Assembly (NCBI RefSeq): GCF_003667275.1
Contig: NZ_RCNV01000003.1
Coordinates: 62,001 to 126,000, forward strand
From: Mesonia aquimarina
GTDB lineage: Bacteria > Bacteroidota > Bacteroidia > Flavobacteriales > Flavobacteriaceae
Direction: 5' to 3'
DNA: 64,000 bases
Shown here: piece by piece, positions 31,828-57,407 of the stretch
How positions within the stretch are numbered: the stretch's first letter is position 1
Layout of the letters: every line of letters starts with the position of its first letter
Notes under the pieces: model-generated
The model's input: only the letters and a program-made list of their open reading frames with translations
Told to the model about the DNA's origin: nothing
The model's database searches: none
Made by a program: the position numbers and the translations under genes

Positions 31828-31850
31828 TTTAATTACTTTTAAATTATTGT

Positions 31851-33350: not shown

Positions 33351-33371
33351 CTTTTTTTAATTTTTAGTTGT

Positions 33372-40816: not shown

Positions 40817-40826
40817 CTGTTTAAAA

Positions 40827-41957: not shown

Positions 41958-42126
41958 TTTTCTTCCTTGCAGATTGAACATATCAATCTGTATCCTCTAT
42001 TATAGCCAAAGAACATCTTCTGGCTAAATGTTGCTGTACCCAATTCTCAACAACACTATTAACCTTGTACTATTAAGAAAATTCAAACTATTTGGCAAAA
42101 TGCCTAATAGCAATACATCGATTATT

Positions 42127-42760: not shown

Positions 42761-42784
42761 GTTAATTATAATATTAAAAACCCT

Positions 42785-42851
42785 AAAGCCTGAACTCCCT
42801 AAGGCTTGTGTTGATAATCCCCCAATTACAACATAAGCCAGTTCAGGTCTT
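42785..42851 (+). repeat. Long hairpin upstream of the plus-strand operon
   Basis: CCTGAACT (42789-42796) pairs with AGTTCAGG (42840-42847), and GGCTTGTGTTG (42803-42813) with CAACATAAGCC (42829-42839). The outer word is shared with the palindromic unit at 31052-31070 (AGTTCAGGC). It lies 40 bases before the first gene of the operon, in the leader or promoter. Confidence 0.55.
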
Positions 42852-42890: not shown

Positions 42891-43118
42891 ATGAAAAATC
42901 ACTGGTTATGGATGGTCCTCGGTTGTGGACTGCCGCTTTTACTCATCTTTTTAGCACCATCTATTGGAATTGGTGGTGGCACCTGGCTTTTTGCATTTAT
43001 TATAATAATGTTCGCAGTACACTTGTTAATGCCCATGCGGCACGGGAGCCATACGCACGGATTGTCCAATGAGAACTTAAAAAAGAAGGATAAAAAAAAA
43101 GAAGGACAACATCACTAA
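42891..43118 (+). CDS. DUF2933-type small membrane protein
   Basis: A 75-aa protein with two hydrophobic helices (WLWMVLGCGLPLLLIFLA and TWLFAFIIIMFAVHLLM), and a C-terminus containing HGSHTHG and many Lys. This is the pattern of DUF2933 proteins that accompany copper and silver efflux genes. The His-containing tail could bind metal on the cytoplasmic side. It is the first gene of the long plus-strand operon, 10 bases ahead of the metallochaperone. Confidence 0.8.
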   Translation: MKNHWLWMVLGCGLPLLLIFLAPSIGIGGGTWLFAFIIIMFAVHLLMPMRHGSHTHGLSNENLKKKDKKKEGQHH

Positions 43119-43128: not shown

Positions 43129-43341
43129 ATGAAACGAAAATTTCAAATTAATGGTATTAGTTGCGGCGGCTGCATTAGCAGGGTCAAAAAGACATTGGAA
43201 GAACATCCAAAGATTGAAAAGGCAGAAATTTTTCTGGCACCAAAAGGAGCTACAATCATCACTATGAAGGAAACGCTTTCAGTAGATGAATTACAAAAAC
43301 AACTCAGCAACCTTGAGGGTTACACAATTGAAAAACTATAA
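43129..43341 (+). CDS. Heavy-metal-associated domain protein
   Basis: A 70-aa HMA protein: MKRKFQINGISCGGCISRVKK with the CxxC metal site ISCGGC. It is the counterpart of the chaperone at 20583, and is probably paired with the CPH-type ATPase at the far end of the operon. Length and motif are regular. Confidence 0.88.
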   Translation: MKRKFQINGISCGGCISRVKKTLEEHPKIEKAEIFLAPKGATIITMKETLSVDELQKQLSNLEGYTIEKL

Positions 43342-43363: not shown

Positions 43364-43582
43364 ATGTTTTTTCACGACGGAAGTTTCGGAGGTATGCACC
43401 TGATATGGTGGATTATTTGGATGGCGTTTATCATTTGGATTTTCTTTATCCCAACTGATATCCCATACCAAAAACCAAAAAAAGAAAAGCCATTGGACAT
43501 CCTAAAAAACAGGTTTGCCAAGGGCGAAATTTCAAAGGAAGAATTTGAGGAATCCAAAAAATTATTAAAATCAGACAACTAA
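43364..43582 (+). CDS. SHOCT-domain membrane protein
   Basis: From ATG 43364 the 72-aa protein is MFFHDGSFGGMHLIWWIIWM followed by a helix and a C-terminal SHOCT domain (LDILKNRFAKGEISKEEFEESKKLL). The longer frame beginning at 43286 overlaps the chaperone gene and is rejected. SHOCT domains mediate oligomerisation; such proteins occur widely in copper loci. Confidence 0.85.
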   Translation: MFFHDGSFGGMHLIWWIIWMAFIIWIFFIPTDIPYQKPKKEKPLDILKNRFAKGEISKEEFEESKKLLKSDN

Positions 43583-43599
43583 CTCAAAACTTTAAAATT

Positions 43600-43878
43600 A
43601 TGTATCGATTAAACGTAAAAAAACTCGGATTTGCTTTCGGTCTTACGGCGGCACTAATTTACTTAGGCTGTATGATAGTTATGTCAACAGCAGGTCGAGA
43701 AGCCACTATCGATTTTTTCAACAGCCTATTGCACGGTTTAGATACCACAAGCATTATCAGGATGGATGTGCCACTATGGGAAGCTGGTTTGGGAATAGTA
43801 CAGATATTCATTTTAGGATGGCTAATAGGTGCCTGTATTGCGGCTTTTTATAATGCGCAAATAAAAGTCAAAAAATAA
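43600..43878 (+). CDS. DUF5676-type membrane protein
   Basis: A 92-aa protein with two membrane helices (LGFAFGLTAALIYLGCMIVM and GIVQIFILGWLIGACIAAFY) linked by a stretch that includes IDFFNSLLHGLD. This is the DUF5676 pattern found in copper-resistance and stress islands. The function is unknown; it probably lies in the inner membrane with the neighbouring small proteins. Confidence 0.85.
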   Translation: MYRLNVKKLGFAFGLTAALIYLGCMIVMSTAGREATIDFFNSLLHGLDTTSIIRMDVPLWEAGLGIVQIFILGWLIGACIAAFYNAQIKVKK

Positions 43879-43896
43879 GAGAGTAAAATAAAATTT

Positions 43897-44607
43897 ATGC
43901 AATATGTCTGGTTCATATGGTCTCTTATAATTCTTGCTCTTTGGGCAATAATCTATTTGTCAAAAAAGGGGTATAGAAAAGAAATGCTCAAAATGAGCCT
44001 TATTACGATGCCCTTTGGTTTAACAGAACCATTATTTGTACCAGAATATTGGATGCCACCTTCCTTATTCCATTTAGCGGAAAGAACAGGTTTTGATATT
44101 GAGAGCCTTATCTTCTCTTTTGCCATTGGCGGAATAGGGGCGGTATTGTATAATCTGATATTCAAAAAAGGCTATATAGATATGCCTCATACCGAACGGA
44201 GCCACCAAAGACATAAGCTACATATTTATATACTTTTTGTTCCAGCCATTGTATTCGTCATATTTAGTCTTTTCACCACGCTTAACCACATCTATTGTGG
44301 CATCATTGCAATGTTTTTTGGTGGTTTGGCAACATTGTACTGTCGCCCAGATTTAAAAGGAAAGATATGGGTTGGAGGAATCTTGTTTACCATACTGTAC
44401 TTCATTTATTTCGGAAGCATCCTTCCGTTTTATCCGCAATATGTGGAGCTGTACTGGAATCTAGACAACCTGACCCATATTCTTGTTTTGGGAATCCCAA
44501 TTGAAGAGTTACTGTTCGCTTTCACCTTTGGTATGTATTGGTCTGGATTATATGAACACTTGTATTGGAGAAAACTTATAAAATCGAAAGAAATGTCAAC
44601 CAACTAA
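43897..44607 (+). CDS. Lycopene-cyclase-domain-like membrane protein
   Basis: A 236-aa protein with about six to seven membrane helices. The motif GIPIEELLFAFTFGMYWSGLYEH near the C-terminus and YWMPPSLF, GYIDMPHTER in the middle resemble the CrtYcd-type lycopene cyclase family, whose PxEE motif is catalytic. Two copies of a three-helix unit seem to be present, as in CrtYcd fusions. No carotenoid genes are nearby, so either it acts on an isoprenoid from elsewhere or the domain has another membrane task. The assignment is to the fold only. Confidence 0.6.
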   Translation: MQYVWFIWSLIILALWAIIYLSKKGYRKEMLKMSLITMPFGLTEPLFVPEYWMPPSLFHLAERTGFDIESLIFSFAIGGIGAVLYNLIFKKGYIDMPHTERSHQRHKLHIYILFVPAIVFVIFSLFTTLNHIYCGIIAMFFGGLATLYCRPDLKGKIWVGGILFTILYFIYFGSILPFYPQYVELYWNLDNLTHILVLGIPIEELLFAFTFGMYWSGLYEHLYWRKLIKSKEMSTN

Positions 44608-44619
44608 AACATTCAAATT

Positions 44620-45081
44620 ATGAAAATATTATTGGCCATAGATGGTTCAGATTTCAGTAAAGTAGCCATTCACGAACTTATAAAAATGACCCTATCCTCA
44701 AATAGTGAAATTCATATTATAAATGTTTATGAACTTCCTAAAACAACCGGTCTGGGATTGCATACTATGGGCGGCAAGATAGGAAATTACATAGAAGAAA
44801 TTAGAAGTAACGCTCAAAAATTGGGAAACAAAATCGTTTCAGAAGCTTTCGATAAAATCAAGGCCGAAAACAAGGCACTTACCATAACCACAAGTGTTGT
44901 TAGTGGCCTGCCCAAAAGTACTATTAATGAAAAAGCAGAAAATTGGGGTGCAGATTTAATTGTAGTAGGCTCTCAGGGTCACGGTGCACTTTCACGCTTA
45001 GTATTGGGCTCTGTATCCCAATATTTGACCACAAATGCCAAATGTTCAGTACTGATTGCAAGAGATAGAAATAAAAAATGA
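44620..45081 (+). CDS. Universal stress protein (single domain)
   Basis: A 153-aa UspA-fold protein: MKILLAIDGSDFSKVAIHEL, and the ATP-binding loop VVGSQGHGALSRLVLGSVSQ with the G-x2-G-x9-G-S/T pattern intact. It is probably ATP-binding. Its stop overlaps the start of the next gene (ATGA). A second, tandem-domain USP is encoded 9 kb later in the same block. Confidence 0.92.
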   Translation: MKILLAIDGSDFSKVAIHELIKMTLSSNSEIHIINVYELPKTTGLGLHTMGGKIGNYIEEIRSNAQKLGNKIVSEAFDKIKAENKALTITTSVVSGLPKSTINEKAENWGADLIVVGSQGHGALSRLVLGSVSQYLTTNAKCSVLIARDRNKK

Positions 45082-46433
45082 AAGAAAAGCAAACACATAG
45101 CATTCCGTTGGAATCCACCTGTAAGATAACAGATGAGATATGTCTTCCCGATACTAAATTACCTCGTGTGGTTATCGTTGGTGGAGGATTTGCAGGTTTG
45201 GCATTGGTTGAGAAACTGAAACACAAAGAAGTTCAAGTGGTTTTACTCGATAAAAATAACTTCCATCAGTTTCAGCCTTTATTATATCAAGTGGCAACGA
45301 GTGCCCTGGAGCCTGACAGTATTGTATTTCCATTCAGAAAACAAATCAATGGCTATAAAAATGTTTTCTTTCGTTTGGCTGAAGTTGAGGAAATTCAACC
45401 TGATTCAAATACTATATTGACCAATAAGGGAAGTGTTTCTTATGACTATTTAGTGTTGGCTACTGGCACGACCACCAATTTCTTTGGGATGGATTCTGTG
45501 GCCGAAAATAGTTTGGGGATGAAGGATATTCGCGATTCCCTCAACATCCGTCATATGATGTTGCAAAATTTGGAACAGGCAGCTATTACTTGTGATGATA
45601 AAGAACGCGACGCGCTGACAAATTTTGTAATAGTAGGTGGTGGTCCAGCAGGCGTAGAAATGGCAGGAGCTTTGGCAGAGTTTTGCAAATACATCCTTCC
45701 CAAAGATTACCCAGAGTACCCTTCTTCCATTATGAATATTTATCTAATAGAAGCCATTGATGAGTTGTTAGGCACAATGTCAGACAAGGCATCATCGAAA
45801 ACCCTCAAATATTTAGAGGATTTGAATGTAAAGGTATTATTAAATGAAGCTGTAAGCAATTATGACGGCAACGAAGTCACTACCAAAAGTGGTAAGACCA
45901 TTTTGGCTAAAAATCTTATCTGGACGGCTGGCGTAAAAGGACAATTCCCAAATGGTATTGATGAAAAACACATAGTCAGGGGCAACCGGATTAAAACCGA
46001 TGCTAATTTAAAAGTAGAAGGCTACGAAAACATTTTTGCCATAGGCGATATAGCTGCGCTTATTTCTGAAGAAAGACCCAAAGGGCATCCACAGGTGGCG
46101 CAGGCAGCAATTCAACAAGGAAAATATCTGGGTAATTCTATATTAAACCTCATAAATAATAAACCCACACAACCTTTCGAATATAAAGACAAAGGCTCCT
46201 TGGCCACTGTAGGAAAACGCAAGGCAGTTGCCGATTTGGGCAAATTTAAATTTGCAGGCTATTTCGCCTGGTTGCTGTGGTCCGTTGTTCACTTGATGTC
46301 CATAAGTGGATTTAGAAATAGATTGATGGTTGGTTTTAATTGGGCGGTAAGTTATTTCACTTATGAAAAGAGCAACCGCCTGATTATTAGAAACTTTAAA
46401 CCGAAATCTTCGGTTAAAAACAGAACAAAATAA
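45078..46433 (+). CDS. NDH-2-type FAD-dependent NADH dehydrogenase
   Basis: A 451-aa flavoprotein: RVVIVGGGFAGLALVEKL (FAD site, about 30-47), VVLLDKNNFHQFQPLLYQVAT, VVGGGPAGVEMAGAL (NADH site), FAIGDIAALI, and a C-terminal membrane anchor (FAWLLWSVVHLMSISGFRN). This is the single-subunit, non-proton-pumping NADH:quinone oxidoreductase. It contains no Fe-S cluster, unlike complex I, and would remain active when Cu(I) damages clusters. It has an N-terminal extension of about 25 residues with two Cys. It overlaps the USP gene by 4 bases. Confidence 0.9.
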   Translation: MKEKQTHSIPLESTCKITDEICLPDTKLPRVVIVGGGFAGLALVEKLKHKEVQVVLLDKNNFHQFQPLLYQVATSALEPDSIVFPFRKQINGYKNVFFRLAEVEEIQPDSNTILTNKGSVSYDYLVLATGTTTNFFGMDSVAENSLGMKDIRDSLNIRHMMLQNLEQAAITCDDKERDALTNFVIVGGGPAGVEMAGALAEFCKYILPKDYPEYPSSIMNIYLIEAIDELLGTMSDKASSKTLKYLEDLNVKVLLNEAVSNYDGNEVTTKSGKTILAKNLIWTAGVKGQFPNGIDEKHIVRGNRIKTDANLKVEGYENIFAIGDIAALISEERPKGHPQVAQAAIQQGKYLGNSILNLINNKPTQPFEYKDKGSLATVGKRKAVADLGKFKFAGYFAWLLWSVVHLMSISGFRNRLMVGFNWAVSYFTYEKSNRLIIRNFKPKSSVKNRTK

Positions 46434-46440: not shown

Positions 46441-47787
46441 ATGAAAAACACCACAGATAAAAATAATAAGCTTTCCCTAATAGGTTCCATATCTCTTGGT
46501 ACAGGCGTAATGATTGGTGCTGGCATATTTGTCCTTATGGGGCAAATAGCAGAGTTGGTGGGTGATCTATTTCCCATTGCATTTATTGCAGGTGCTGTTG
46601 TGGTGGGTTTTAGCTCATATTCCTATGTCAAGTTTTCAAATGCTTTTCCATCGTCTGGAGGTGTGGTTAAATTCCTTAACAAATCCTATGGACCTGGAAC
46701 AACAACAGGGTTTTATTCTTTGCTGATGTACGTATCAATGGTAGTTTCCGAAAGTCTGGTGGCGGGCACTTTTGGAGCATATACGTTGAGACTATTTCCC
46801 GAGTCCTATGCAGGTTATGCCTCTACCCTGGGTGTTGGGCTAATTGTTGTTGCTTATATAGTGAACATCCTGGGCAATAAGGTTATTGGTGCCACCGCGA
46901 CATTTACCGCTATTATAAAGGTAGTGGGAATAGCAATTTTAGCTATTGCCGGCCTTGCAATTTCAGGTTTTGCCGATATTACGGGAAACTATATTCCCAA
47001 AAATACTGAGACATTACCACAAGGCTTCGGATTTGTGGCCGCTTTGGCGTTATCTATCCTTGCTTATAAAGGCTTTACCACTATCACGAACCAAGGGGCC
47101 GATATTAAAAACCCGCATAAAAATCTTGGTAGGTCTATCGTGTTTTCCATACTTATCTGCACACTGATATATGTAGCCTTGGCATTAGCTGTTGCGGGAG
47201 GTTTAAGCATTCCTGAAATAATCGAAGCTAAAGATTATGCCCTTGCAGCCGCCGCAAAACCTGTTTTTGGGGAATGGGGTTCCTGGATTACCATTGGCAT
47301 TGCCATTATTGCCACGGTTTCTGGGGTCATTGCCAGTATCTTTTCCTCTTCACGCTTGTTGGCAATGCTCAGCAATATGAAACAGGTGCCTTCTTTAACC
47401 AAACTTGGTAGCTTAAAAAATCCAGCACTAATATTCACGTCTTCCCTCGCCATTTTACTGACCGTGCTTTTCGATTTGACAAGGATAGCATCCATTGGGG
47501 CTATTTTTTACCTTATTATGGATATCGCTATCCATTGGGGGCTGTTCCGTCACCTTAAAAACAAAGTGGTTTTTCAGCCTATCATCCCATTAATAGCCAT
47601 CGTATTGGACATTGCGGTATTGGCAGCTTTTCTTTATATAAAATATCTGAACGATCCTTTGGTGCTTATCGTAGCAGCGATTGGGATTGTTCTAATACTT
47701 GTTGCAGAACGCCTTTTTATGATTTCACACACAGACGATGAAGGTAATATGCCAATGGGAATGGAAACTACGAACAATAAAACATAA
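46441..47787 (+). CDS. APC-family permease
   Basis: A 448-aa transporter with about 12 membrane helices and the amino-acid/polyamine/organocation signature GTGVMIGAGIFVLMGQIAEL in the first helix, then GGVVKFLNKSYGPG and ASIFSSSRLLAMLSNMKQVP. It probably imports amino acids or polyamines; substrate unknown. It lies between the NDH-2 and gap genes and is spaced 7 bases from NDH-2. Confidence 0.9.
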   Translation: MKNTTDKNNKLSLIGSISLGTGVMIGAGIFVLMGQIAELVGDLFPIAFIAGAVVVGFSSYSYVKFSNAFPSSGGVVKFLNKSYGPGTTTGFYSLLMYVSMVVSESLVAGTFGAYTLRLFPESYAGYASTLGVGLIVVAYIVNILGNKVIGATATFTAIIKVVGIAILAIAGLAISGFADITGNYIPKNTETLPQGFGFVAALALSILAYKGFTTITNQGADIKNPHKNLGRSIVFSILICTLIYVALALAVAGGLSIPEIIEAKDYALAAAAKPVFGEWGSWITIGIAIIATVSGVIASIFSSSRLLAMLSNMKQVPSLTKLGSLKNPALIFTSSLAILLTVLFDLTRIASIGAIFYLIMDIAIHWGLFRHLKNKVVFQPIIPLIAIVLDIAVLAAFLYIKYLNDPLVLIVAAIGIVLILVAERLFMISHTDDEGNMPMGMETTNNKT

Positions 47788-47806: not shown

Positions 47807-48820
47807 ATGAAAAATATAGCAGTTATAGGATACGGAGTCATTGGAAAAAGGGTGGCAGATGCCATCAACTTACAAAACGATATGAAGCTTTCGGGAGTAT
47901 GTGATATCATTAGCGACTGGCGAATTCAAAATGCCGTAAGAAAGGAATACGACATTTATGCAGCAACTAAAGATGCTGCTGATAAAATGAAATCTGAAGG
48001 GATTTCGGTAAAAGGCGATATGCAGGAACTTTTAAAGAAATCAGATCTTGTTGTGGACTGTACACCCAAAAAAATTGCCGCTCAGAATGTCGTTATCTAC
48101 AAGGAGCAAAACATCAAATTTATTCTACACGGTGGCGAAAAACACGAAACCACAGGGCATTCCTTTAGTGCAGAAAATAATTACAAATCAGCTCTAAACT
48201 TGAATGCGACAAGAGTAGTTTCCTGTAATACTACGTCTATTTTAAGAACCTTGACCGCTTTAAAAAGAGCCGATTTATTGGATTATGCCAGAGGTACACT
48301 TTTAAGAAGAGCTACAGACCCTTGGGAAAGTCATTTGGGTGGTATTATGAATACGATGGTTCCCGAAAAAGATATCCCAAGCCATCAAGGTCCGGATGCT
48401 AAAAGTGTTGACCCAGAACTGGATGTCATCACCGCAGCAGTAAAAGTACCGCAAACCTTAAGCCATCTGCACTATTGGAATGTGAAATTGAAAAAACAGG
48501 CGACAAAGCAAGAAGTGCTAAATGCTTTCAAAACGTCCAGCCGTATTAAATTGATTCAATATGACCAAGGTCTGGTTTCTAACAATACCATTAAGGAAAT
48601 GTTCTTGGATATGGGAAGGCCTTGGGGCGATATGTACGAAGTAGCACTATGGGAAGATATGCTGAAGGTACAGGGAGACGAACTCTTTTATGCCTACGTG
48701 GTCGATAACCAAGCTATTGTAATCCCGGAAACAATTGATGCTATTAGGGCTTTAACTGGAATTGAAACAGATGGTACAAAATCCATAGCCAAAACAAATG
48801 AAAGTTTAGGAATCCATTAA
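47807..48820 (+). CDS. Type II (archaeal-type) glyceraldehyde-3-phosphate dehydrogenase
   Basis: Oxidises glyceraldehyde-3-phosphate to 1,3-bisphosphoglycerate. The 337-aa protein matches the archaeal class: [18 protein letters not shown] (nucleotide site), [25 protein letters not shown], and the catalytic Cys in [13 protein letters not shown], quite different from the bacterial SNASCTTNCL site. Among Bacteria this form is uncommon. Type I GAPDH is a known copper target, so a second isozyme here is notable. It opens a run of glycolytic genes and is followed after 11 bases by an aldolase. Confidence 0.9.
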
Positions 48821-48831
48821 ATACTATCAAA

Positions 48832-49893
48832 ATGAAAACAGACAAGAATATAGTAGAACTTTTAGGAGAAAAAGCAGACTTCTATTTAGAACACGTTTGT
48901 GAAAAAATAACAAAGGATGAATTGCAAGTGCCAAGCAAAAATAGTTTAGAAAAAGTATTTGGCAGTAGCAACAGAAATCCGCAGGTGCTTCGAAGTCTTT
49001 CACAATTGTACAACAACGGAAATCTGGGAGGTACAGGCTATTTAAGTATCCTTCCTGTGGACCAAGGTATTGAGCATAGCGCGGCCTTTTCATTCTATAA
49101 AAACCCAGATTATTTCGACCCAGAGAACATTATAAAACTCGCCCTTGAGGCCGGTTGTAATGGGGTGGCTTCCACGTTTGGGGTTTTGGGTTTGAATGCC
49201 CGAAAATATGCCCATAAAATCCCTTTTATCGTTAAGATTAACCACAATGAACTGCTTACCTACCCGAACAAATATGACCAAACACTCTTTGGTAAGGTAA
49301 AAACCGCTTGGGATATGGGAGCAATTGCCGTAGGAGCTACGATTTATTTTGGTTCAGCGGAAAGTAACAGACAACTCAAAGAAATAGCAGAGGCTTTTGA
49401 AGAAGCTCATAATCTTGGTATGGCTACCATTTTATGGTGCTATACACGAAATGAAGCTTTTAAAACCGATAAAGAAGATTATCACGCATCGGCCGATGTA
49501 ACCGGACAAGCCAATCATATTGGAGTAACGATACAGGCAGATATCATCAAACAAAAATTACCAACCAATAATTTTGGTTTCAAAGAGATAGGATTTGGAA
49601 AATATGATGATGAAATGTATAAAACCCTTACCACAGACCACCCTATTGACCTTTGCAGGTTGCAAGTAGCCAATTGCTATATGGGTAAAATAGGGCTGAT
49701 TAATTCAGGTGGTGGTTCCAAAGGCAAATCAGATTTGTCCGAAGCTGTAACAACTGCCGTCATCAATAAAAGGGCTGGTGGCTCTGGGCTGATAATGGGA
49801 AGAAAAGCATTTCAAAAGCCCTTTAGCGAAGGCGTGAAAGTATTACAATCTGTTCAGGAAGTTTATTTGGACGATAAAATTAGTGTAGCATAA
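48832..49893 (+). CDS. Class I fructose-bisphosphate aldolase (DhnA type)
   Basis: Cleaves fructose-1,6-bisphosphate to two triose phosphates through a lysine Schiff base, without metal. The 353-aa protein shows [16 protein letters not shown] near residue 70, the barrel strand [11 protein letters not shown] with a probable Schiff-base Lys in the family (position uncertain), and [13 protein letters not shown] with [13 protein letters not shown] binding phosphate. The class is archaeal/DhnA-like, not the Zn-dependent class II usual in bacteria. It follows gap type II, consistent with a linked pathway. Confidence 0.9.
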
Positions 49894-49901
49894 TCAACAG
49901 A

Positions 49902-51242
49902 ATGTTTGACACAGAGATAAAATCATTAAAATCACTTAACCACTACCTCCTTAAACTGGTAGAAAGCCGTCTATGGCTTAAAGTAATCATTGCTTTGTTG
50001 TTAGGTGTTGGATTTGGTCTGTTATTGAGTCCACAAAATGGATGGATTTCTAAAGAAACAGCAGATATCGCGGGGAATTGGCTGGCATTGCCCGGTGTAC
50101 TATTTCTGAAACTGGTTCAAATGATTATGATTCCGTTGATTGTGGCTTCCATCATCACAGGAATCGCAAGTAATGATAAGGACAGTTTAAAAAAATTAGG
50201 TGGTGGTGTTTTACTATATTTTTTGGGCACAACAATAGTTTCGGTTAGCATTGGTACGATACTATCCCAAATTTTTAGACCGGGTCGTTTTCTTCATAAA
50301 CAAGCACTAAAAGAGCATAATGAAATTACGGCAGTTTCAACTGATGAACCCGAGCTTTCCTTCGGAGTTGAAACGATTCCTGATGCCATCTCAAACCTGC
50401 TTCCTGAAAATCCATTGGCATCTATGGTAAGTGGTGAAATGTTAAGTATTGTGATTTTCACAATCATTATTGGTGTAGCTGTGCTATCTCTTGAAAATGA
50501 TTTACTGCGCCCAGTAAAGCTGCTTCTAAGTGCCATTCAGGAAGTCTGTATGACGGTGGTAAAATGGTCTATGTTATTAGTCCCTATTGCTGTTTTCGGA
50601 CTTATGGCGCAGCTTACCTCTAGTGTTGGTTTAAGTTCTCTATCTGGTCTCACCTATTATGTTGGCGTCGTCCTGCTCGGTCTATTACTTTTGGTAATTT
50701 TCTATTTAGGGCTAATTGTGCTTCTTGGAAAAGCAAACCCTATGCATTTCTTAAAAAAAATAAGGGACGTTCAATTATTGGCCTTTTCAACCACAAGCTC
50801 TGCGGCCGTGATGCCACTTTCCCTTCAAACAGCCGAAGAAGAATTGAAGGTGGACAAGACCATTAGCAATTTTATCATTCCCATAGGTGCAACCGTCAAT
50901 ATGGATGGCACTGCACTTTATCAAACGATAACAACCCTTTTTATAGCCCAAGCCTATGGACTGGAAATGAGTTTACTCAATATTATTGTGGTCATTGTAA
51001 CTATCGTTGCTGCTTCAATCGGCACACCTGCCATTCCCGGAGGTGGTGTGGTGATACTCGCTTCTGTTTTGGGAAGTGTCGGTATTCCAGCCGAAGGCAT
51101 CATCATTATCATTGGTGTAGAAAGATTGTTGGGAATGTTCAGGACTGCTGTAAACGTAACGGGTGACCTTACAGCTTGTATGGTTTTTAATAGGTTGTAT
51201 GGTATAAAAAATACTGAAATTCTTAAAAAAGAAGCTTTATAA
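49902..51242 (+). CDS. Dicarboxylate/amino acid:cation symporter (DAACS)
   Basis: A 446-aa transporter with the GltP/DctA-family motifs: TTSSAAVMPLSLQTAEEEL (serine-rich hairpin), PIGATVNMDGTALYQTITTLFIAQAYG and IGTPAIPGGGVVILASVL, ending with ERLLGMFRTAVNVTGDLTACMV. It imports glutamate, aspartate or C4-dicarboxylates with Na+ or H+. It interrupts the glycolytic genes and would supply carbon or redox partners. Confidence 0.93.
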   Translation: MFDTEIKSLKSLNHYLLKLVESRLWLKVIIALLLGVGFGLLLSPQNGWISKETADIAGNWLALPGVLFLKLVQMIMIPLIVASIITGIASNDKDSLKKLGGGVLLYFLGTTIVSVSIGTILSQIFRPGRFLHKQALKEHNEITAVSTDEPELSFGVETIPDAISNLLPENPLASMVSGEMLSIVIFTIIIGVAVLSLENDLLRPVKLLLSAIQEVCMTVVKWSMLLVPIAVFGLMAQLTSSVGLSSLSGLTYYVGVVLLGLLLLVIFYLGLIVLLGKANPMHFLKKIRDVQLLAFSTTSSAAVMPLSLQTAEEELKVDKTISNFIIPIGATVNMDGTALYQTITTLFIAQAYGLEMSLLNIIVVIVTIVAASIGTPAIPGGGVVILASVLGSVGIPAEGIIIIIGVERLLGMFRTAVNVTGDLTACMVFNRLYGIKNTEILKKEAL

Positions 51243-51244
51243 CT

Positions 51245-52216
51245 ATGGATAGTACTATAAAACATATAGGTGTATTTACCTCTGGAGGTGATAGTCCAGG
51301 GATGAATGCAGCCTTGTACGCCATTACAAAAACGGCTGAAGTAAATGGTATAAACGTAAGCGGCTTTCGAAAAGGATATGAAGGATTGATAGACGGTGAC
51401 TTGGTTCAATTAAAATCACACGAATTACAAAAACTGACCCAAAAGGGTGGCACTATCCTTAAGACAGCCCGAAGCAAACGTTTTCTCGAACTGGAAGGTC
51501 GAAAAAAAGCCTTGCAAACTCTAAATGTAAACAAAATAGACGCTTTAATTGCCATTGGTGGTGATGGTACATTTAAAGGATTACTTGCTTTTTCAGAGAT
51601 ATGCGATATCCCATTCATAGGGATTCCCGGAACTATTGATAACGATATTTCGGGTACGGATTACACCCTTGGTTTTGATTCCGCAGTTAACACAGCCATT
51701 GAAAATATTGATAAAATAAGGGATACTGCCGAATCCCATAACCGTGTGTTCATTGTTGAAGTAATGGGAAGGGATTCGGGTTACATCGGTATTCATTCTG
51801 GATTGATGGTTGGTGCGGACGCCATATTAATTCCGGAGAGCGGTACGGACTTTATTAACCTTTTGGGTAAGGTGAAAAATTACGATAGCGAGGATGCTTT
51901 TCTAATCGTAGTTTCTGAAGGTGACGAAATTGGTGCCGAACTTGTTTCTTCAAAAATAAAGGAAGTCAATCCCAATGTCGATTTACGCATAACAAAGCTT
52001 GGCCACATACAGCGAGGTGGAAATCCTTCTGCTTTGGATAGAATGTTGGGCATAAGGCTTGGGGTGGAAGCCGTAAAATCGCTTTTACAAAGTAAAAAGA
52101 ATGTAATGATCGGGATTTTAAACAATCAATTGCACTTAACCCCTTTTAATGAGGTGGTCAAGCAACATCAGGTCAATAAAGAATTGCACGAACTTTTAGA
52201 ACTATTTGGAACATAA
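51245..52216 (+). CDS. pfkA: ATP-dependent 6-phosphofructokinase
   Basis: Phosphorylates fructose-6-phosphate. The 323-aa protein has GVFTSGGDSPGMNAALYAI, IGGDGTFKGLLAF, PGTIDNDISGTDYTLGFDSA, VEVMGRDSGYIG and GHIQRGGNPSALDRML. The GTIDND triad (not KTIDND) points to ATP as phosphate donor. It follows the symporter by 2 bases and precedes the dehydrogenase by 3, so these genes are transcribed together. Confidence 0.95.
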   Translation: MDSTIKHIGVFTSGGDSPGMNAALYAITKTAEVNGINVSGFRKGYEGLIDGDLVQLKSHELQKLTQKGGTILKTARSKRFLELEGRKKALQTLNVNKIDALIAIGGDGTFKGLLAFSEICDIPFIGIPGTIDNDISGTDYTLGFDSAVNTAIENIDKIRDTAESHNRVFIVEVMGRDSGYIGIHSGLMVGADAILIPESGTDFINLLGKVKNYDSEDAFLIVVSEGDEIGAELVSSKIKEVNPNVDLRITKLGHIQRGGNPSALDRMLGIRLGVEAVKSLLQSKKNVMIGILNNQLHLTPFNEVVKQHQVNKELHELLELFGT

Positions 52217-52219
52217 ATT

Positions 52220-53209
52220 ATGAAAACAACAATATACAGCACACATAAATTCGATAAGCCTTCCATTGAAAACGCTAATAAAGGAAAACATCAATTGAAT
52301 TTTCTGGAATTTAGGCTAACAAAGGAAACCGCCTTATTGGCAGAAGGTTCAAAGGCCATAGCACTTTTCTCAAGTGACGGTGCCTCTTCGGAAGTTTTGG
52401 ATATTTTACACAAACTAGGCATAAAATTTATCGCATTACGTTCGGCAGGTTTCAATCACGTCGATTTAGAAAAAGCAGCTGAATTGAATATAAAAGTGGC
52501 CCGTGTCCCAGCCTATTCACCTTATGCCATTGCAGAACATACAATGGCTTTGATACTTGCATTAAACCGAAGACTGATTAAAGCCCACAATAGAGTGCGC
52601 GAACAAAACTTCTCATTGAACGGTCTTACCGGTTTCGACCTCAATGGAAAAACCGTCGGCGTTATCGGGACTGGAAAAATTGGGTCTGTATTGGTAAAAA
52701 TACTACACGGTTTTGGTTGTAAAATACTTGTTCAGGATGTCATTGAGGATGAAAATTTAATCAAGTTTTACAATGTAATCTATACCAATTGTGAAACTAT
52801 TTGTAAGCAGTCCGATATCATAAGCTTACACGTACCACTAACGTCTTCAACGAAACACTTGATTGATGCAAAACATATTTCATTAATGAAGCAAGGCGTA
52901 ATGCTTATCAATACAAGTCGTGGTGGATTGGTCGATACCAAAGCTGTTATCGAAGGATTGAAAACTAAAAAAATTGGGTATTTCGGAATAGATGTGTATG
53001 AGGAAGAAGAAGGATTGTTCTTTGAAGACCATTCCGATGACATTTTGCAAGACGATGTCATTGCACGCTTAATGACTTTTAATAATGTTTTAATTACCAG
53101 TCATCAGGCCTTTTTAACCGAAACTGCATTGACAAATATTGCTGAAACCACAATATATAATCTGGATTGTTTTGAAAAAGGCAAAGTTTCAGGAAACGAA
53201 GTTTCTTGA
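52220..53209 (+). CDS. D-lactate dehydrogenase / 2-hydroxyacid dehydrogenase
   Basis: A 329-aa NAD-dependent enzyme of the D-isomer family: IALRSAGFNHVDLEKA (LdhA-type substrate site), RVPAYSPYAIAEH, the Rossmann motif GKTVGVIGTGKIGSVLVKIL, HVPLTSSTKHLID, and NTSRGGLVDTKAV with the catalytic His in ITSHQAFLTETAL. This agrees with fermentative D-lactate dehydrogenase, which reoxidises NADH from the GAPDH step. Other 2-ketoacid substrates remain possible. Confidence 0.92.
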   Translation: MKTTIYSTHKFDKPSIENANKGKHQLNFLEFRLTKETALLAEGSKAIALFSSDGASSEVLDILHKLGIKFIALRSAGFNHVDLEKAAELNIKVARVPAYSPYAIAEHTMALILALNRRLIKAHNRVREQNFSLNGLTGFDLNGKTVGVIGTGKIGSVLVKILHGFGCKILVQDVIEDENLIKFYNVIYTNCETICKQSDIISLHVPLTSSTKHLIDAKHISLMKQGVMLINTSRGGLVDTKAVIEGLKTKKIGYFGIDVYEEEEGLFFEDHSDDILQDDVIARLMTFNNVLITSHQAFLTETALTNIAETTIYNLDCFEKGKVSGNEVS

Positions 53210-53251: not shown

Positions 53252-54025
53252 ATGAAACGAGTAAAAAATAAAGTAGCCATTGTCACAGGAGGAGCATCTG
53301 GTTTGGGAAAATCAAGTGCTAAACTATTGGCACGAGAAGGAGCAAAAATAGTCGTGTCCGATATAGACGAAGAAGGTGGTAAAAAAGTAGTTCAACAAAT
53401 AAAAGAAGACGGTGGTGAGGCCATATTCATTAAACAAGATGTTGCCAAAGAAGATGAATGGAAAAACGTTATTGAAACTACCCTTGAAACTTATGGGAAA
53501 TTACACATTTTAGCAAATTCTGCTGGAATAGGGCTCGGAGGAACAGTTGAAGATGTAACCCTTGAAGATTGGAAAAACCTTATAGATATAAACCTAAATG
53601 GCACTTTTTTAGGCACCAAATATGGTATAAAAGGTATGAGGAAAACAGATGAAGGTGGTTCCATCATTAACTTCTCTTCCATTGAAGGACTTATCGGTGA
53701 CCCCAATTTACCTGCGTATAACGCAAGTAAAGGCGGTGTTACCATTTTCACTAAATCTGCCGCCCTACATTGTGCTAAACAAGGCTATGGCATCCGTATC
53801 AATTCTATCCATCCTGCTTATATCTGGACCCCAATGGTAGAGAATTTTCTCAAGGCTCAAGGTGACGTAGAAGAAGGCAAAAAACAATTGGAAAGTTTAC
53901 ATCCAATTGGTCATTTGGGAGAACCTGACGATATAGGGTACGGAGTTGTATATCTGGCCTCTGATGAATCCAAATTTATGACCGGTTCCGAACTGGTTAT
54001 CGATGGTGGCTATACCGCCCAATAA
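53252..54025 (+). CDS. Short-chain dehydrogenase/reductase
   Basis: A 257-aa classical SDR: VAIVTGGASGLGKSSAKLLA (TGxxxGxG), NSAGIGLGG, SIINFSSIEGL, the catalytic YNASKGG (YxxxK) and HPAYIWTPMVENF. It has the sequence style of hydroxysteroid or cyclohexanol/glucose dehydrogenases. The substrate is unknown; a role in clearing reactive carbonyls under stress fits the setting. Confidence 0.92.
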   Translation: MKRVKNKVAIVTGGASGLGKSSAKLLAREGAKIVVSDIDEEGGKKVVQQIKEDGGEAIFIKQDVAKEDEWKNVIETTLETYGKLHILANSAGIGLGGTVEDVTLEDWKNLIDINLNGTFLGTKYGIKGMRKTDEGGSIINFSSIEGLIGDPNLPAYNASKGGVTIFTKSAALHCAKQGYGIRINSIHPAYIWTPMVENFLKAQGDVEEGKKQLESLHPIGHLGEPDDIGYGVVYLASDESKFMTGSELVIDGGYTAQ

Positions 54026-54047
54026 GAAAAACAATAAAACTAAAATT

Positions 54048-54884
54048 ATGAAAAACATACTCGTACCTACCGATTTCTCGAAAAACTGCACTAAAGCAGC
54101 AAATCTTGGTATCGAAATAGCCAAACTATACGATGCAGAGATACACTTTTTACATCAAATGACTACCCCTGTTGATTGGGTAAAACTGGATAAACAAAAA
54201 GAAAAAAGGTATCCCGAAACTTTAAAGGAAATTGGAGTCGTTAAATCAAAATTGCGGGAACTGGAAAAAAAGGCTGAGCACGAAGGTCTTAAATGTCGAA
54301 CTTTTCTTCAATTTGATTCGGGACAGAAAGATATTTTAGAACATTCTGGTCATTTCCATCACGATTTCATCGTTACCGGCAGCAGTGGAACCAAAGGTGT
54401 CATTAGAGAAATTACGGGTAGTAATGTTGAAAAAATAGTTCGAAAAGCCAATGCACCCATTATCGTTGTCAAAGAAGAGGATGTAACGTTTCCCTTCAAG
54501 GACATTCTATTTGTTTCTTCTTTTGAAGAGGATGTCACGCATCCATTTCAAGAAATCTTGTCAATAGCCAAAAAATGCGATGCTAAAATCCATTTGTTAC
54601 GAGTAAACACAGAAACTGACTTTAATAGCATAGAGCTTGGCTTAAATCCTGTAAAGGAATTTCTTGAAAAATTCCCCAATCTGAAGAACTTCTCAATGAG
54701 CGTCCATAATGAGTCTTCCGTAGAGGCAGGCATCAATACATTTTTAAAACATCAGCCCGCAGATTTAATTGCAATGAGCACCCACGGAAAAACGGGATTT
54801 TTGAGCCTATTTTCAAAAAGTATTGCCGAAGGTGTTACAAACCATTCTTCTCTACCTGTAATGACCATACATATTAAAAAATGA
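54048..54884 (+). CDS. Universal stress protein (tandem domain)
   Basis: A 278-aa protein with two UspA domains: MKNILVPTDFSKNCTKAANL at the front and IAMSTHGKTGFLSLFSKSIAEGV at the back. The second domain has the nearly intact ATP loop. I begin at ATG 54048 (MKNILVP) rather than an earlier ATG that lies inside the SDR gene. Its stop overlaps the next gene by 4 bases. Confidence 0.92.
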   Translation: MKNILVPTDFSKNCTKAANLGIEIAKLYDAEIHFLHQMTTPVDWVKLDKQKEKRYPETLKEIGVVKSKLRELEKKAEHEGLKCRTFLQFDSGQKDILEHSGHFHHDFIVTGSSGTKGVIREITGSNVEKIVRKANAPIIVVKEEDVTFPFKDILFVSSFEEDVTHPFQEILSIAKKCDAKIHLLRVNTETDFNSIELGLNPVKEFLEKFPNLKNFSMSVHNESSVEAGINTFLKHQPADLIAMSTHGKTGFLSLFSKSIAEGVTNHSSLPVMTIHIKK

Positions 54885-55723
54885 AAAATCCAATCAACAT
54901 AGTAAAGTATTCAGGTGATGTGGTAGCCTTTGATGTAGATAAGCTTATCAATTCCTTAAGGCGTTCACAAGCGAGCGAAGAATTAATTCAGCAAATAGTT
55001 GAACAAGTCGAAGGTCAACTCTATGATGGAATTACCACAAAAAAAATCTATCAGATGGCATTTAAAATGCTTAAGCGTAAATCTCGTGTAAGTGCCTCAA
55101 AGTACAAGCTCAAAAAAGCTTTAATGGAACTAGGTCCAACCGGTTTTCCATTTGAAAAATTAGTAGGCAAACTATTGGCACACGAAGGTTTTGATACAGA
55201 AGTTGATGTTATTGTTCAAGGTAATTGTGTACAACACGAAGTTGATGTAATCGCCGAAAAAGAAAACAAACACTATATGATTGAATGCAAATACCATAGC
55301 GACCAAGGTAGGTTTTGTAATGTAAAAATCCCATTATATATCCATTCACGGTTTTTGGACGTAGAAAAGCAATGGGAACACCAAAAAGGTCACGAGGCTA
55401 AACTTCATAAAGGAGGTGTGTACACCAATACGCGTTTCACAACCGATGCCATTCAGTACGGGAAATGTGTTGGAATGCTTTTAAGCAGTTGGGATTATCC
55501 AAGAGGAAATGGTCTCAAGGACAGAATAGATAAATCTGGGCTACATCCCTTAACCGCTTTAACAACACTTACTAAAGCTGAAAAAACAAAATTATTAGAT
55601 GAAGGCATCGTACTCTGTAAAGAGCTTCACGAAACCCCAAAAATTTTAGAACAAGTAGGAGTGCCAAAATCAAGACACAAAAAGGTTCTCGAAGATTCAA
55701 GAGAATTATGTGGAATTCATTAG
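54881..55723 (+). CDS. ATP-cone domain fused to an Mrr-like restriction endonuclease domain
   Basis: A 280-aa fusion. Residues 5-85 form an ATP-cone (VVAFDVDKLINSLRRSQAS, ITTKKIYQMAFKML), the nucleotide-sensing domain of NrdR and ribonucleotide reductases. From residue 88 an Mrr-type PD-(D/E)XK domain follows: GFPFEKLVGKLLAHEGF (E92), HEVDVIAE (D122), MIECKYH (E135, K137) and a Mrr-like TNTRFTTDAIQYG. The nuclease triad is complete, so it may cut DNA in a nucleotide-dependent way. It overlaps the USP gene and clusters with stress and nucleotide genes, not with a methylase. Confidence 0.86.
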   Translation: MKNPINIVKYSGDVVAFDVDKLINSLRRSQASEELIQQIVEQVEGQLYDGITTKKIYQMAFKMLKRKSRVSASKYKLKKALMELGPTGFPFEKLVGKLLAHEGFDTEVDVIVQGNCVQHEVDVIAEKENKHYMIECKYHSDQGRFCNVKIPLYIHSRFLDVEKQWEHQKGHEAKLHKGGVYTNTRFTTDAIQYGKCVGMLLSSWDYPRGNGLKDRIDKSGLHPLTALTTLTKAEKTKLLDEGIVLCKELHETPKILEQVGVPKSRHKKVLEDSRELCGIH

Positions 55724-56030: not shown

Positions 56031-57407
56031 ATGAAAAACAAAAAAATAAACATCCACTTTTTGGGAGCGGCAGGCACCGTGACTGGCTCAAAATATTTGG
56101 TGGATACAGGAGATAGAAAGATACTTATAGACTGTGGCCTCTTCCAAGGGTTAAAGGAATTACGCCTTAAAAACTGGGAGTACCCACCTGTTAATGTAGG
56201 TGATATTGATGCTGTTTTGCTTACCCACGGTCATATGGACCATACAGGTTATTTACCCAGATTGGTAAAACAAGGCTTCAAAGGGCCCATTTATGGTACG
56301 AATCCTACTTTGGACATTGCAAAAATCATTTTGAATGATAGTGCAAAAATACAGGAGCAAGAAGCCGAACGTGCCAATAAGGAAGGCTATTCCAAACATA
56401 GTCCCGCAGAACCATTATACGATTTAAAGGATGTAGAAAAAACTATCCCACACTTTAAAGGAATTCCACAATCACAATGGATTCCGTTATTTGATGGTAT
56501 TAGGGCTCGCTTCCAATACAACGGACATATTCTGGGTGCAACCTATATTGAGTTGGATGTGCACGGAAAACGTTTTGTCTTTTCAGGAGACATTGGTAGA
56601 ACCAATGATTTATTGCTCTATCCACCCCTTAAACCAAAAAAAGCGGATGTGCTTTTCATTGAATCCACTTATGGTGGAAGGTTTCATCCCGATGAAATAG
56701 AAGCACTTCCGCAGATTGAAAAATTGGTCAATGACACTATCAATAGAGGTGGAAGTCTTTTTATTCCAAGTTTTTCGGTAGAACGCGCCCAACTGATGAT
56801 GGTGATTTTTTGGAAATTATTGAAAGAGAAGAAAATCCCAAAAGTACGAATGATAATGGACAGCCCAATGGGCGCTAGTGTATTGGAATTGTTTCATCGC
56901 ACAAGGGACTGGCACAGACTAGATGAGAATGAATGTGACGAAATGTGTTCACACTTTACTGTCGTGAGCAGCTATCGCGAGACTATGGAATTACGAACCG
57001 ATAACAAACCAAAAATTGTGATTGCAGGAAGCGGAATGCTTACTGGCGGAAGAATGCTCAACTATCTCGAAACCCAAGCACAAAATTCAAACAACACTTT
57101 GCTCTTTGTGGGTTATCAGGCCGAAGGTACTCGGGGAAGAAAATTATTGGAAGGTGATAAGGAATTGAAAGTGTACGGAAAATGGGTGCCGTTTCATATG
57201 GAAGTTGCAGAAATTGAAGGGCTTTCGGCACACGCAGACCATAAAGAACTTATAGAATGGATGGGCAAAATAAAAAATACGCCAGAGCGCATTTTCATAG
57301 TACACGGTGAAAAAGAAAGTGCGGAAGCATTGCAAAAAGGCATCAAGGAAACTTATGGGTGGGATGCAGAAATTCCGCAATTATACACTATCGAAGAAAT
57401 AGAATAA
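56031..57407 (+). CDS. Metallo-beta-lactamase-fold RNase (beta-CASP)
   Basis: A 458-aa RNA-processing-type enzyme from ATG 56031 (MKNKKINIHFLGAAGTV). The zinc motif is LTHGHMDHTGYLPRL, further ligands lie in GAT and SGDIGR, and the beta-CASP part includes ESTYGG, PSFSVERAQ and a C-terminal SAHADHKEL. It is the CPSF-like exonuclease family (RNase of archaeal and bacterial types), not a beta-lactamase. A role in RNA turnover under stress is inferred. It precedes the nucleotide-salvage genes. Confidence 0.92.
   Translation: MKNKKINIHFLGAAGTVTGSKYLVDTGDRKILIDCGLFQGLKELRLKNWEYPPVNVGDIDAVLLTHGHMDHTGYLPRLVKQGFKGPIYGTNPTLDIAKIILNDSAKIQEQEAERANKEGYSKHSPAEPLYDLKDVEKTIPHFKGIPQSQWIPLFDGIRARFQYNGHILGATYIELDVHGKRFVFSGDIGRTNDLLLYPPLKPKKADVLFIESTYGGRFHPDEIEALPQIEKLVNDTINRGGSLFIPSFSVERAQLMMVIFWKLLKEKKIPKVRMIMDSPMGASVLELFHRTRDWHRLDENECDEMCSHFTVVSSYRETMELRTDNKPKIVIAGSGMLTGGRMLNYLETQAQNSNNTLLFVGYQAEGTRGRKLLEGDKELKVYGKWVPFHMEVAEIEGLSAHADHKELIEWMGKIKNTPERIFIVHGEKESAEALQKGIKETYGWDAEIPQLYTIEEIE

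Follow-up and report, generated by a model that had tools for sequence, protein, structure and literature searches.

A second glycolytic gene set in a copper-gene island of Mesonia aquimarina

Why would a bacterium that already owns a glycolysis carry further glycolytic enzymes among genes for copper export? The question is raised by a 64,000-nucleotide stretch of the Mesonia aquimarina genome, here called the window, in which 24 genes on one strand (the forward strand) form a run at 42028–62904 that closes with a CPH-type copper ATPase. Throughout 42891–62904 every gene lies on this strand and the intergenic gaps are at most 42 nt (for the second USP the start codon is not certain, and this gene may overlap the preceding one).

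Gene content of the run

The original prediction placed in this region a type II GAPDH, a class I fructose-bisphosphate aldolase (FBA-I), an ATP-dependent 6-phosphofructokinase (PFK), a D-lactate dehydrogenase (D-LDH) and a type II NADH dehydrogenase (NDH-2), and both the coordinates and the identities of these genes were borne out. In addition, the run encodes a beta-CASP RNase, an AMP phosphorylase, a PRPP synthetase, two USPs and a terminal CopB, which were absent from that prediction.

The type II (archaeal-type) GAPDH (47807–48820) scores 446.2 bits against a cut-off of 185 for NF003251 and 324 against 232.9 for TIGR01546; it matches the solved structure 1cf2 at 261 bits, and its SCNTT motif aligns with 1cf2 and 2czc. 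Cys140 and His220, which we take to be the catalytic residues, are present in 81 of 81 rows, and the reactive Cys is retained in 41/41 rows of a further alignment. FBA-I (48832–49893), a Schiff-base aldolase of the DhnA/FbaB group, reaches 636.5 bits for NF006707 (cut-off 327). Its Lys240 is found in 78/78 sequences and was aligned with 1ojx; the residue aligned with it is presumably the Schiff-base lysine of the T. tenax enzyme, Lys177. Among genes shared with the window, FBA-I comes first after GAPDH-II in 79 of 80 relatives; in seven an additional gene intervenes. Two lesions were seen: the FBA-I match of locus L076 contains an internal stop, and GAPDH-II is in two pieces, as if frame-shifted, in one of the 23 genomes that carry it (G241).

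PFK (51245–52216) passes the subfamily model NF002872 (366.7 bits, cut-off 253) and falls below the equivalog model TIGR02482 (352.6, cut-off 371.35). Gly occupies its two donor positions, G108 and G129, in 53/53 sequences; Gly at the donor positions (the position-104 equivalent), rather than Asp or Lys, presumably marks the ATP type. The D-LDH-like dehydrogenase (52220–53209) is assigned to the fermentative (LdhA) type from its closest solved relatives, D-2-hydroxyacid and D-lactate dehydrogenases at 334–343 bits, and reaches no NCBIfam D-LDH cut-off (NF006374, 203 against 356); the catalytic R234 and E261 are present in 41/41 rows and H295 in 40/41, with one gap. The NDH-2-like flavoprotein (45078–46433) has PF07992 and PF22366 (NDH2_C) above cut-off and occurs in 73/80 relatives.

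Three genes of nucleotide and RNA metabolism lie further downstream. The beta-CASP metallo-beta-lactamase RNase (56031–57407) carries PF10996 and PF07521, and its top NCBIfam models, MBL-CASP Cas14 (391 bits) and aCPSF1 (302 bits), are both under cut-off. Pfam describes its domain as a Zn-dependent hydrolase, and a member of a Zn family runs counter to the description of the cassette, in the original prediction, as one of metal-independent isozymes. The AMP/thymidine phosphorylase family member (57436–58938), single copy in the genome, scores 692.8 bits for NF003338 (cut-off 434) and 495, under the cut-off of 535, for TIGR03327; its best solved relative is 4ga5. The archaeal AMP pathway was considered, but neither R15P isomerase nor RuBisCO accompanies AMP phosphorylase among those genes of the run that were identified. 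The divergent ribose-phosphate pyrophosphokinase (Prs, PRPP synthetase; 58949–59842) scores 397 bits for NF005537 (cut-off 322) and shares 22% identity with the host's own Prs.

The remaining genes encode a small membrane protein (42891–43118), present in 71/80 relatives, with no match in the NCBIfam search and by our assumption DUF2933-like (genes annotated DUF2933 occur in similar islands elsewhere); a SHOCT protein, a DUF5676 protein, a lycopene-cyclase-domain protein and USP1 (43364–45081); an APC-family amino acid permease (46441–47787; PF13520), found in 44/80 relatives; an SDF-family symporter of the glutamate/dicarboxylate type (49902–51242; PF00375, 395 bits); an SDR oxidoreductase (53252–54025; PF13561); USP2 and an ATP-cone plus Mrr-like protein (54003–55723); and a conserved 97-aa protein of no assigned function (60490–60783), without a Pfam match and present in 21 of the 22 relatives that extend to the end of the run. 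Across ten genes of the run the median dN/dS is 0.03–0.09 (40 random pairs per gene, dS often >1) and the catalytic residues are invariant, so the gene content of the run is not due to chance.

Copper genes, regulator and island edge

The ATPase that closes the run (60802–62904) is of the CopB (CPH) type, with 616.5 bits for TIGR01511 (cut-off 397) and a VIACPHALG motif. Near the head lies a CopZ-like HMA metallochaperone (43129–43341), which has relatives at 50% identity or more in 72 of 80 cases and matches CopZ and MerA-type HMA models below their cut-offs. A divergent copper block on the reverse strand (27468–41243) encodes a CusB-like adaptor, DUF305, DUF3347 and DUF302 proteins, a multicopper oxidase (MCO), an outer-membrane efflux protein and a CusA-type RND pump. 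The pump passes TIGR00914 (779, cut-off 701.45); the oxidase passes the Pfam MCO domains and stays below the CopA-type model TIGR01480 (418.7 against 478.95). Besides CopB there is another heavy-metal P-type ATPase, which carries an HMA domain and lies on the same strand as this block (20816–23074; PF00403, PF00122). The tyrosine-recombinase integrase (16685–17899, forward strand; PF00589, PF17293) probably marks the left edge of the island. Beside it the 3' half of a tRNA-Leu was read by eye at about 16393–16450; ARAGORN reported no tRNA in the window. An Rfam search of 40000–64000, which covered the fluoride riboswitch, gave no match over threshold.

At the head of the run, a CopZ-like HMA-fold domain is fused to an AraC-type HTH (42028–42708; HTH_18, 48.9 bits). 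In the aligned HMA-fold domain, M11, C13 and C16 of the MxCxxC loop are invariant in 19/19 rows, and both Cys are kept in 52/52. The predicted structure (pLDDT 84.5) has the beta-alpha-beta-beta-alpha order, and Foldseek matched it to CopZ, CopP and Atx1 (TMt up to 0.75) and to AraC domains, with a best E of 4e-3 and none reaching 1e-3. This protein is the probable metal sensor of the run.

The host's own set and linkage in other genomes

The original prediction presupposed a type I GAPDH and a class II aldolase elsewhere in the host, and both were found: the genome contains three Gp_dh_N loci for type I GAPDH, as well as its own class II FBA, PFK and Prs. Since the host keeps these enzymes, those of the island are a second set. 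The proposal that they are metal-independent isozymes holds for the aldolase, where class I stands beside class II. It does not hold for PFK, which is of the host's class (51% identical to the host enzyme). GAPDH needs a metal in neither of its classes, according to the available passages of PMC6350627, and GAPDH-II keeps its active-site Cys and His, so that its copper-proofness is at most a possibility. Cys residues are more numerous in the FBA-I and Prs of the island than in the host's FBA-II and Prs; thiols are thus not generally avoided. The class of PFK, the absence of thiol avoidance and the kept reactive Cys were all counted against a replacement of copper's targets.

In a survey of 299 Flavobacteriaceae genomes, the window's genome included, GAPDH-II was found over cut-off in 23, and all 23 carry CopB (at 86% or more) on the same strand, 8.3–21.3 kb downstream; four further genomes carry that CopB without GAPDH-II (Fisher 1e-30, uncorrected for shared ancestry). 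The linkage to copper ATPase genes on which the original prediction had been staked is thus present in every carrier. Relatives of CopB, CusA, MCO or HMA genes occur near GAPDH-II at 22/22 Flavobacteriaceae loci (one, L140, counted on a weak MCO-like match alone), at 11 of 16 loci from Bacteroidota more widely (the 16 include a further Flavobacteriaceae locus) and at 13 of 15 plasmid loci, or 12 when a non-heavy-metal ATPase is set aside; copper genes lie near none of 20 control loci with housekeeping GAPDH or FBA.

The plasmid neighbourhoods, mostly from other phyla, include a heavy-metal ATPase in 10 of 15 cases. Neighbours of a metal type recur: cueR plus an ATPase in Agrobacterium, a CopY/BlaI family gene in Rhodococcus, and a CPH ATPase–Prs–RNase–AMP phosphorylase series in Paracoccus. 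Note that in several ATPases from proteobacteria and actinobacteria the motif is CPD instead of CPC or CPH, so that their metal is uncertain, and that the Phenylobacterium ATPase falls outside the heavy-metal type. Two compact copper islands, L220 and L221, retain USP2 and the ATP-cone/Mrr-like gene and hold no relatives of the glycolysis genes.

Explanations and meaning

The leading explanation, tentative and given just short of an even chance, is that the run supplies the metabolic half of a mobile island for copper tolerance and replaces copper-poisoned enzymes alongside export. The CopZ-like/AraC regulator would probably sense cytosolic Cu(I) and turn on one long transcript. This would yield the metallochaperone and the CopB exporter, together with substitutes for copper-poisoned GAPDH and Prs, for the metal-dependent class II aldolase and for Fe-S based NADH oxidation, while PFK and D-LDH would keep glucose feeding ATP synthesis and restore NAD+ as host enzymes and respiration are impaired. 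We infer a single transcript and its induction by copper, and that the substitutes may be copper-insensitive and of benefit to the cell.

The available passages of the literature bear on this explanation in both directions. Cu(I) inhibits GapA of S. aureus, and gapA overexpression left copper tolerance unraised (PMC6350627, authors' data not shown); Prs of the same species is inhibited by Cu(I), and more prs lowers copper sensitivity (PMC10249872). As in copper-resistance islands and ICEs, such as the ICE13534 cargo (PMC13393423, in part), CusA/CusB, MCO, copper ATPases, a metallochaperone gene and an integrase are present. The same source describes in a P. aeruginosa ICE a copper-induced cluster of 18 genes ending in a GAPDH gene, of a type unstated in its passages, whose expression differed with copper in one of the two strains; transfer of the ICE left the Cu MIC of P. 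putida unchanged, which the authors attribute to a high baseline. Unlike those elements, the run here joins GAPDH-II to aldolase, PFK, D-LDH, NDH-2, Prs and AMP phosphorylase, and its core is conserved in relatives across Flavobacteriaceae. Fluoride operons, in which enolase and pyrophosphatase stand under fluoride riboswitches, likewise encode the target enzymes of an ion, but supply more enzyme (PMC11139923, in part), whereas here the isozymes are distant or unrelated and the ion would be copper.

Counted against the leading explanation were the S. aureus gapA result, the P. putida MIC, the G241 and L076 lesions, the Sphingobium island L213, the CPD ATPases and L220/L221.

A general stress or low-energy survival module settled in metal islands, with copper one of several stresses and isozyme class incidental, is a distinctly less probable but still weighty alternative. 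It fits the genes for substrate-level ATP, redox, salvage and USPs, and also what relatives add to the same run: acetate kinase (at least 6/80), phosphoketolase (at least 4/80), alpha-glucan (glycogen) phosphorylase (at least 6/80), alpha-amylase (at least 6/80) and NhaA (at least 21/80), counts that are lower bounds because right flanks are incomplete. Roseovarius adds the arginine deiminase pathway and Legionella anisa an alternate F1Fo ATPase, Pta and AckA. The phosphoketolase, acetate kinase and glycogen phosphorylase of relatives are as compatible with a role in ATP and redox supply as with target replacement, and emergency ATP supply is therefore a serious rival or co-function. Plasmid stress and energy islands likewise combine AMP phosphorylase–Prs with USPs, Pta-AckA and phosphoketolase (Sphingobium L213, free of copper genes within 10 kb) or with ATP-cone and RNase genes (Criblamydia L211); unlike the window's run, both lack a GAPDH-II relative in 21 kb each, and L211 has CusA and a P-type ATPase where L213 has no copper genes in that stretch. 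In Agrobacterium a gene of the Crp/Fnr family is found within 10 kb, and in Croceicoccus one for a cyclic-nucleotide-binding protein. Against such a module, the CopZ-like/AraC protein is the only regulator found in the window's run, with no Crp/Fnr match among its searched proteins, CopB is linked to GAPDH-II in 23/23 genomes, and none of the 20 control loci shows copper genes.

It is unlikely that the extra glycolysis simply keeps the copper ATPases supplied with ATP when respiration is blocked by copper, with no part played by insensitivity of the enzymes to the metal. The P-type ATPase does share the run with PFK, GAPDH and D-LDH, steps of an ATP-yielding fermentation, and the accessory genes of relatives are likewise ATP-yielding, but GAPDH and aldolase of another class, beside intact host sets, and a divergent Prs are left unexplained. 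We give very little weight to an ordinary second glycolysis for a particular sugar, hitch-hiking without a metal link: GH130 (11/80), amylase and glycogen phosphorylase do occur in the run of some relatives, but the host is already equipped with GAPDH, aldolase and PFK, and the metal-gene linkage is near universal in the family and recurs in other phyla. In the ArsJ system GAPDH makes the product that is exported. Arsenate detoxification of this kind, through 1-arseno-3-phosphoglycerate and an export permease, shows, as far as its description extends, that a GAPDH gene can belong to a toxic-element (metalloid) operon, but is the least probable reading here, where the GAPDH is type II and the permeases of the run are APC and SDF, with no MFS partner in it.

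More broadly, replacement of poisoned enzymes could be a layer of copper tolerance that is general and spreads by horizontal transfer. In Bacteroidota, Pseudomonadota, Actinomycetota and Deinococcota, metal-regulated islands would back each Cu(I)-inactivated enzyme (GAPDH, Prs, metal-dependent aldolase, Fe-S respiration) with an unrelated or very distant isozyme and add substrate-level ATP generators; we consider this possible but on balance doubtful. Copper tolerance has so far been described mostly as export, sequestration and oxidation. If the proposal is true, enzyme swapping would be a further layer, moving between phyla with the pumps, and the type II GAPDH of these bacteria would serve copper resistance above all, which would explain an archaeal-type GAPDH in bacteria that already own one. 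The cargo of GAPDH, Prs and aldolase would then be evolution's answer when one asks which enzymes of the cytosol are limiting for growth under copper, and that question would become directly testable.

Organization of the gene run and its island

The coordinates and gene calls originally predicted for the glycolysis cassette were upheld. The cassette is part of a run of 23 genes on the + strand (42891-62904), in which the largest gap is at most 42 nt and which is preceded by a regulator gene (42028-42708). In order, the genes encode a DUF2933-like protein, an HMA chaperone, a SHOCT protein, a DUF5676 protein, a lycopene-cyclase-domain protein, a USP, NDH-2, an APC permease, type II GAPDH (GAPDH-II), class I aldolase (FBA-I), an SDF symporter, ATP-PFK, D-LDH, an SDR, a second USP (USP2), an ATP-cone/Mrr protein, an 84-aa protein, a beta-CASP RNase, AMP/thymidine phosphorylase, PRPP synthetase (Prs), two unknown proteins and the copper ATPase CopB. 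Of the 22 named loci extending to this end of the run, 21 encode a conserved 97-aa protein without a Pfam match (60490-60783 in the window). Pseudogenes or drifting cargo are ruled out by an analysis of active-site residues and dN/dS in relatives, from which matches with an internal stop (nine AraC, one HMA and one FBA1) or below 80% length were excluded.

On the strand opposite to the run lie a copper block (27468-41243), which contains CusB, DUF305, DUF3347, DUF302, a multicopper oxidase (MCO), an outer-membrane protein and CusA, and a second heavy-metal ATPase with an HMA domain (20816-23074). A tyrosine integrase (16685-17899) is located directly to the right of the 3' half of a tRNA-Leu gene, identified by eye (together 16393-17899), which is probably the insertion site of the island. 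Farther left are chromosomal genes, including BshC and genes whose Pfam domains we interpret as a MiaB-like radical-SAM protein and FtsY. Since the integrase at the tRNA-Leu half is flanked by chromosomal genes on the left and accompanied by copper genes, the cassette most likely sits in a mobile island. The right edge was not found, the 46-base tRNA-Leu piece being single-copy in the whole genome with up to three mismatches allowed. Directly right of the window (3598-15339 of locus L222, in the same genome) lie defence genes of the DUF6577, AbiEii and Wadjet-like (JetD_C, MksE) types, possibly further island cargo. An M90 glucose-regulated metallopeptidase (19797-20570), presumably MtfA-like, adjoins the HMA-domain ATPase of the island and hints at a second sign of sugar-metabolism control inside it.

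In the structural model, the regulator consists of a CopZ-like domain with an invariant MxCxxC loop fused to an AraC DNA-binding domain; its Foldseek matches, with E-values of 4e-3 and weaker, span half its length. On this model, it may be a Bacteroidota Cu(I) sensor that works as a single protein. A strong hairpin (42780-42850; outer stem CCTGAACT...AGTTCAGG, inner stem GGCTTGTGTTG...CAACATAAGCC), a possible leader or attenuator, separates the regulator from the DUF2933-like gene with which the run begins. This hairpin has counterparts 3' of the regulator in 12/80 named loci, in two sequence forms that mostly retain the outer stem. A known riboswitch leader is rejected for the run, Rfam giving 0 matches over threshold in 40000-64000, hairpin included, and a sigma-70 scan found no excess of promoter-like sites (60, against 61.7 in shuffled sequences).

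Linkage to copper genes in other genomes

We compared 80 named loci, which ranked highest by GAPDH-II similarity (86-100% identity) among 152 confirmed relatives; they come from many Flavobacteriaceae, Membranihabitans (Saprospiraceae) and a Cyclobacterium MAG. FBA-I is the next gene of the window's set after GAPDH-II in 79 of them, with a methyltransferase-like gene intervening in 7. The HMA gene is found in 72 loci strictly, or in 74 when two matches below 40% identity are counted. A full 10 kb flank is absent on the left in 12/80 loci and on the right in 9/80. Among the 68 loci whose left flank is complete, 66 carry DUF5676, 65 HMA at 50% identity or more, 62 NDH-2 and 57 the regulator. Of the 61 loci extending as far as USP2 or Mrr, 42 have PFK and 38 have LDH. 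CopB (17/80) and Prs (23/80) are undercounted among these best 80 of 152 because both genes lie far to the right, where flanks are incomplete.

In an even draw of 299 Flavobacteriaceae, GAPDH-II over the cut-off is found in 23 genomes (including that of the window), CopB at 86% identity or more in 27, and DUF5676 in 27. The linkage to CopB named in the original prediction as a check was borne out: all 23 genomes with GAPDH-II have CopB and DUF5676, and in each of them CopB lies downstream of GAPDH-II on the same strand, at a distance of 8.3-21.3 kb (Fisher value 1e-30, uncorrected for common ancestry or transfer). GAPDH-II of G241, one of these genomes, matches in two pieces, as if frame-shifted. 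Four genomes have CopB without GAPDH-II: G114 has an island divided between contigs, G232 an island lacking GAPDH-II, and G144 and G083 have reduced loci, the latter cut by a contig end. More distant CopB relatives (62%) occur at loci L220 and L221, in two genomes, each in a compact copper island with the layout CusA-regulator-DUF2933-DUF5676-USP2-Mrr-CopB and without relatives of the glycolysis genes. From these compact islands we infer that the metabolic genes were inserted into a copper core. The ATP-cone plus Mrr-like protein (54881-55723 in the window) is kept with USP2 and CopB even there; in Criblamydia, this protein adjoins the RNase and AMP phosphorylase.

Relatives of CopB, CusA, MCO or HMA occur around GAPDH-II in 22/22 Flavobacteriaceae loci (in L140, only as a weak MCO-like match) and in 11 of 16 wider Bacteroidota loci (the ATPase counted at L165 has an unusual CPG motif), as compared with none of 20 housekeeping control loci, namely 19 GAPDH loci (three from the host, the others treated as type I on the basis of ORF lengths and weak matches) and a single class II FBA. 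Three of the five wider Bacteroidota loci without a copper-type match are cut by a contig end. In a tree of 41 rows, the Flavobacteriaceae-type GAPDH-II, including that of Membranihabitans, forms one starred clade next to Pontibacter, and the wider Bacteroidota loci L162, L163, L166, L174 and L176 form a separate clade, with an ATPase only at L176.

GAPDH-II also occurs on 37 of 72,556 plasmid records. Among 15 of these neighbourhoods, chosen for organism spread, 13 contain a copper-type match, in stretches of 14-40 kb as against 14-20 kb for the controls (in four cases, the excess over the controls is larger than about 1 kb). The strict count is 12, without Phenylobacterium, whose sole match is a P-type ATPase of the non-heavy-metal type with an IPEG motif; ten of the 12 have a heavy-metal-type ATPase, Pontibacter has only CusA and Mycolicibacterium only MCO. 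Croceicoccus and Acidovorax show no copper-type match, and these two, Indioceanicola and Phenylobacterium are weak or negative for proper copper genes. Examples include Agrobacterium (GAPDH-II, cueR, a heavy-metal ATPase and CusA), Hoeflea (MCO, GAPDH-II and a CPH ATPase), Rhodococcus (phosphoketolase, an ATPase, GAPDH-II and a CopY/BlaI family regulator) and Meiothermus (aldolase, glycogen phosphorylase, PFK and GAPDH-II, followed by a metal-sensitive regulator and an ATPase). The Paracoccus locus has GAPDH-II, a CPH ATPase, Prs, a gene of phosphoketolase length with an epimerase annotation, the RNase and AMP phosphorylase, and that of Roseovarius has AMP phosphorylase-Prs-copper ATPase, GAPDH-II and the arginine deiminase pathway. 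Plasmid neighbourhoods were also examined for five of 155 AMP phosphorylase matches. A 4-kb record labelled as phage from human faeces (MT839732.1) encodes, at its positions 449-1447, a GAPDH-II 62.5% identical to that of the window; the label is probably wrong and the record a fragment of a plasmid or island.

A second enzyme set and its possible role

The host genome, with a given completeness of 99.99%, contains three further loci with a type I GAPDH N-domain, one class II FBA, a second PFK adjoining one of the GAPDH loci, and its own Prs. These genes rule out the cassette as the sole glycolysis of the host; it is a second set of enzymes. The island PFK and Prs are 51% and 22% identical to their host counterparts, respectively, and BLAST at E 1e-3 matches neither GAPDH-II to the host GAPDH-I nor FBA-I to the host FBA-II. 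A genome search found no second copy of AMP phosphorylase or class I FBA of these families, and GAPDH-II over the cut-off is absent from two genomes of the same genus. The run adds a class I aldolase alongside the metal-dependent class II enzyme of the host, and an NDH-2, a type of enzyme without Fe-S. The original idea of a backup glycolysis built throughout from metal-free isozymes is weakened by the PFK and the RNase. Cysteine counts similarly weaken a reading as thiol-poor enzymes: GAPDH-II has 3, against 3, 5 and 1 in the host type I copies, and the island and host values are 5 and 2 for FBA, 6 and 4 for Prs, and 1 and 4 for PFK.

In Staphylococcus aureus, Cu(I) inhibits GAPDH (PMC6350627) and, in vitro, Prs, PRPP drops, and raised prs expression makes cells less copper-sensitive (PMC10249872). 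The run encodes distant versions of both enzymes. In a Pseudomonas aeruginosa ICE, a copper-induced cluster ends in a GAPDH gene, whose type the text leaves unstated and which is differentially expressed in strain 13534 and not in 24TCP (PMC13393423). Because of these inhibited targets, their substitutes in the run, the regulator model and the ICE precedent, we favour a reading in which copper would switch on the run to bypass poisoned targets while its fermentation genes would supply ATP and NAD+. The weakest link is copper insensitivity of the island enzymes, since GAPDH-II keeps a reactive cysteine of the same kind in 81/81 rows, gapA overexpression brought S. aureus no benefit (PMC6350627), and P. 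aeruginosa ICEs left the copper MIC of P. putida unchanged (PMC13393423). Acetate kinase, phosphoketolase, glycogen phosphorylase and NhaA among the accessory genes of relatives, together with a copper-free stretch in Sphingobium, point to a module with a wider stress or energy role, a reading that overlaps with target bypass. An ArsJ reading is rejected, the run having no MFS gene.

A description of the island or cassette was not found in searches of open-access PMC papers, judged mainly on titles and the beginnings of abstracts; the available text of PMC2864759 covers only general glycolysis genes, and that of PMC13393423 names the GAPDH gene in passing. As a metal island that would duplicate poisoned targets, the run resembles fluoride operons with enolase (PMC11139923). 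The component families are known, and what is new is their combination and its tie to CopB.
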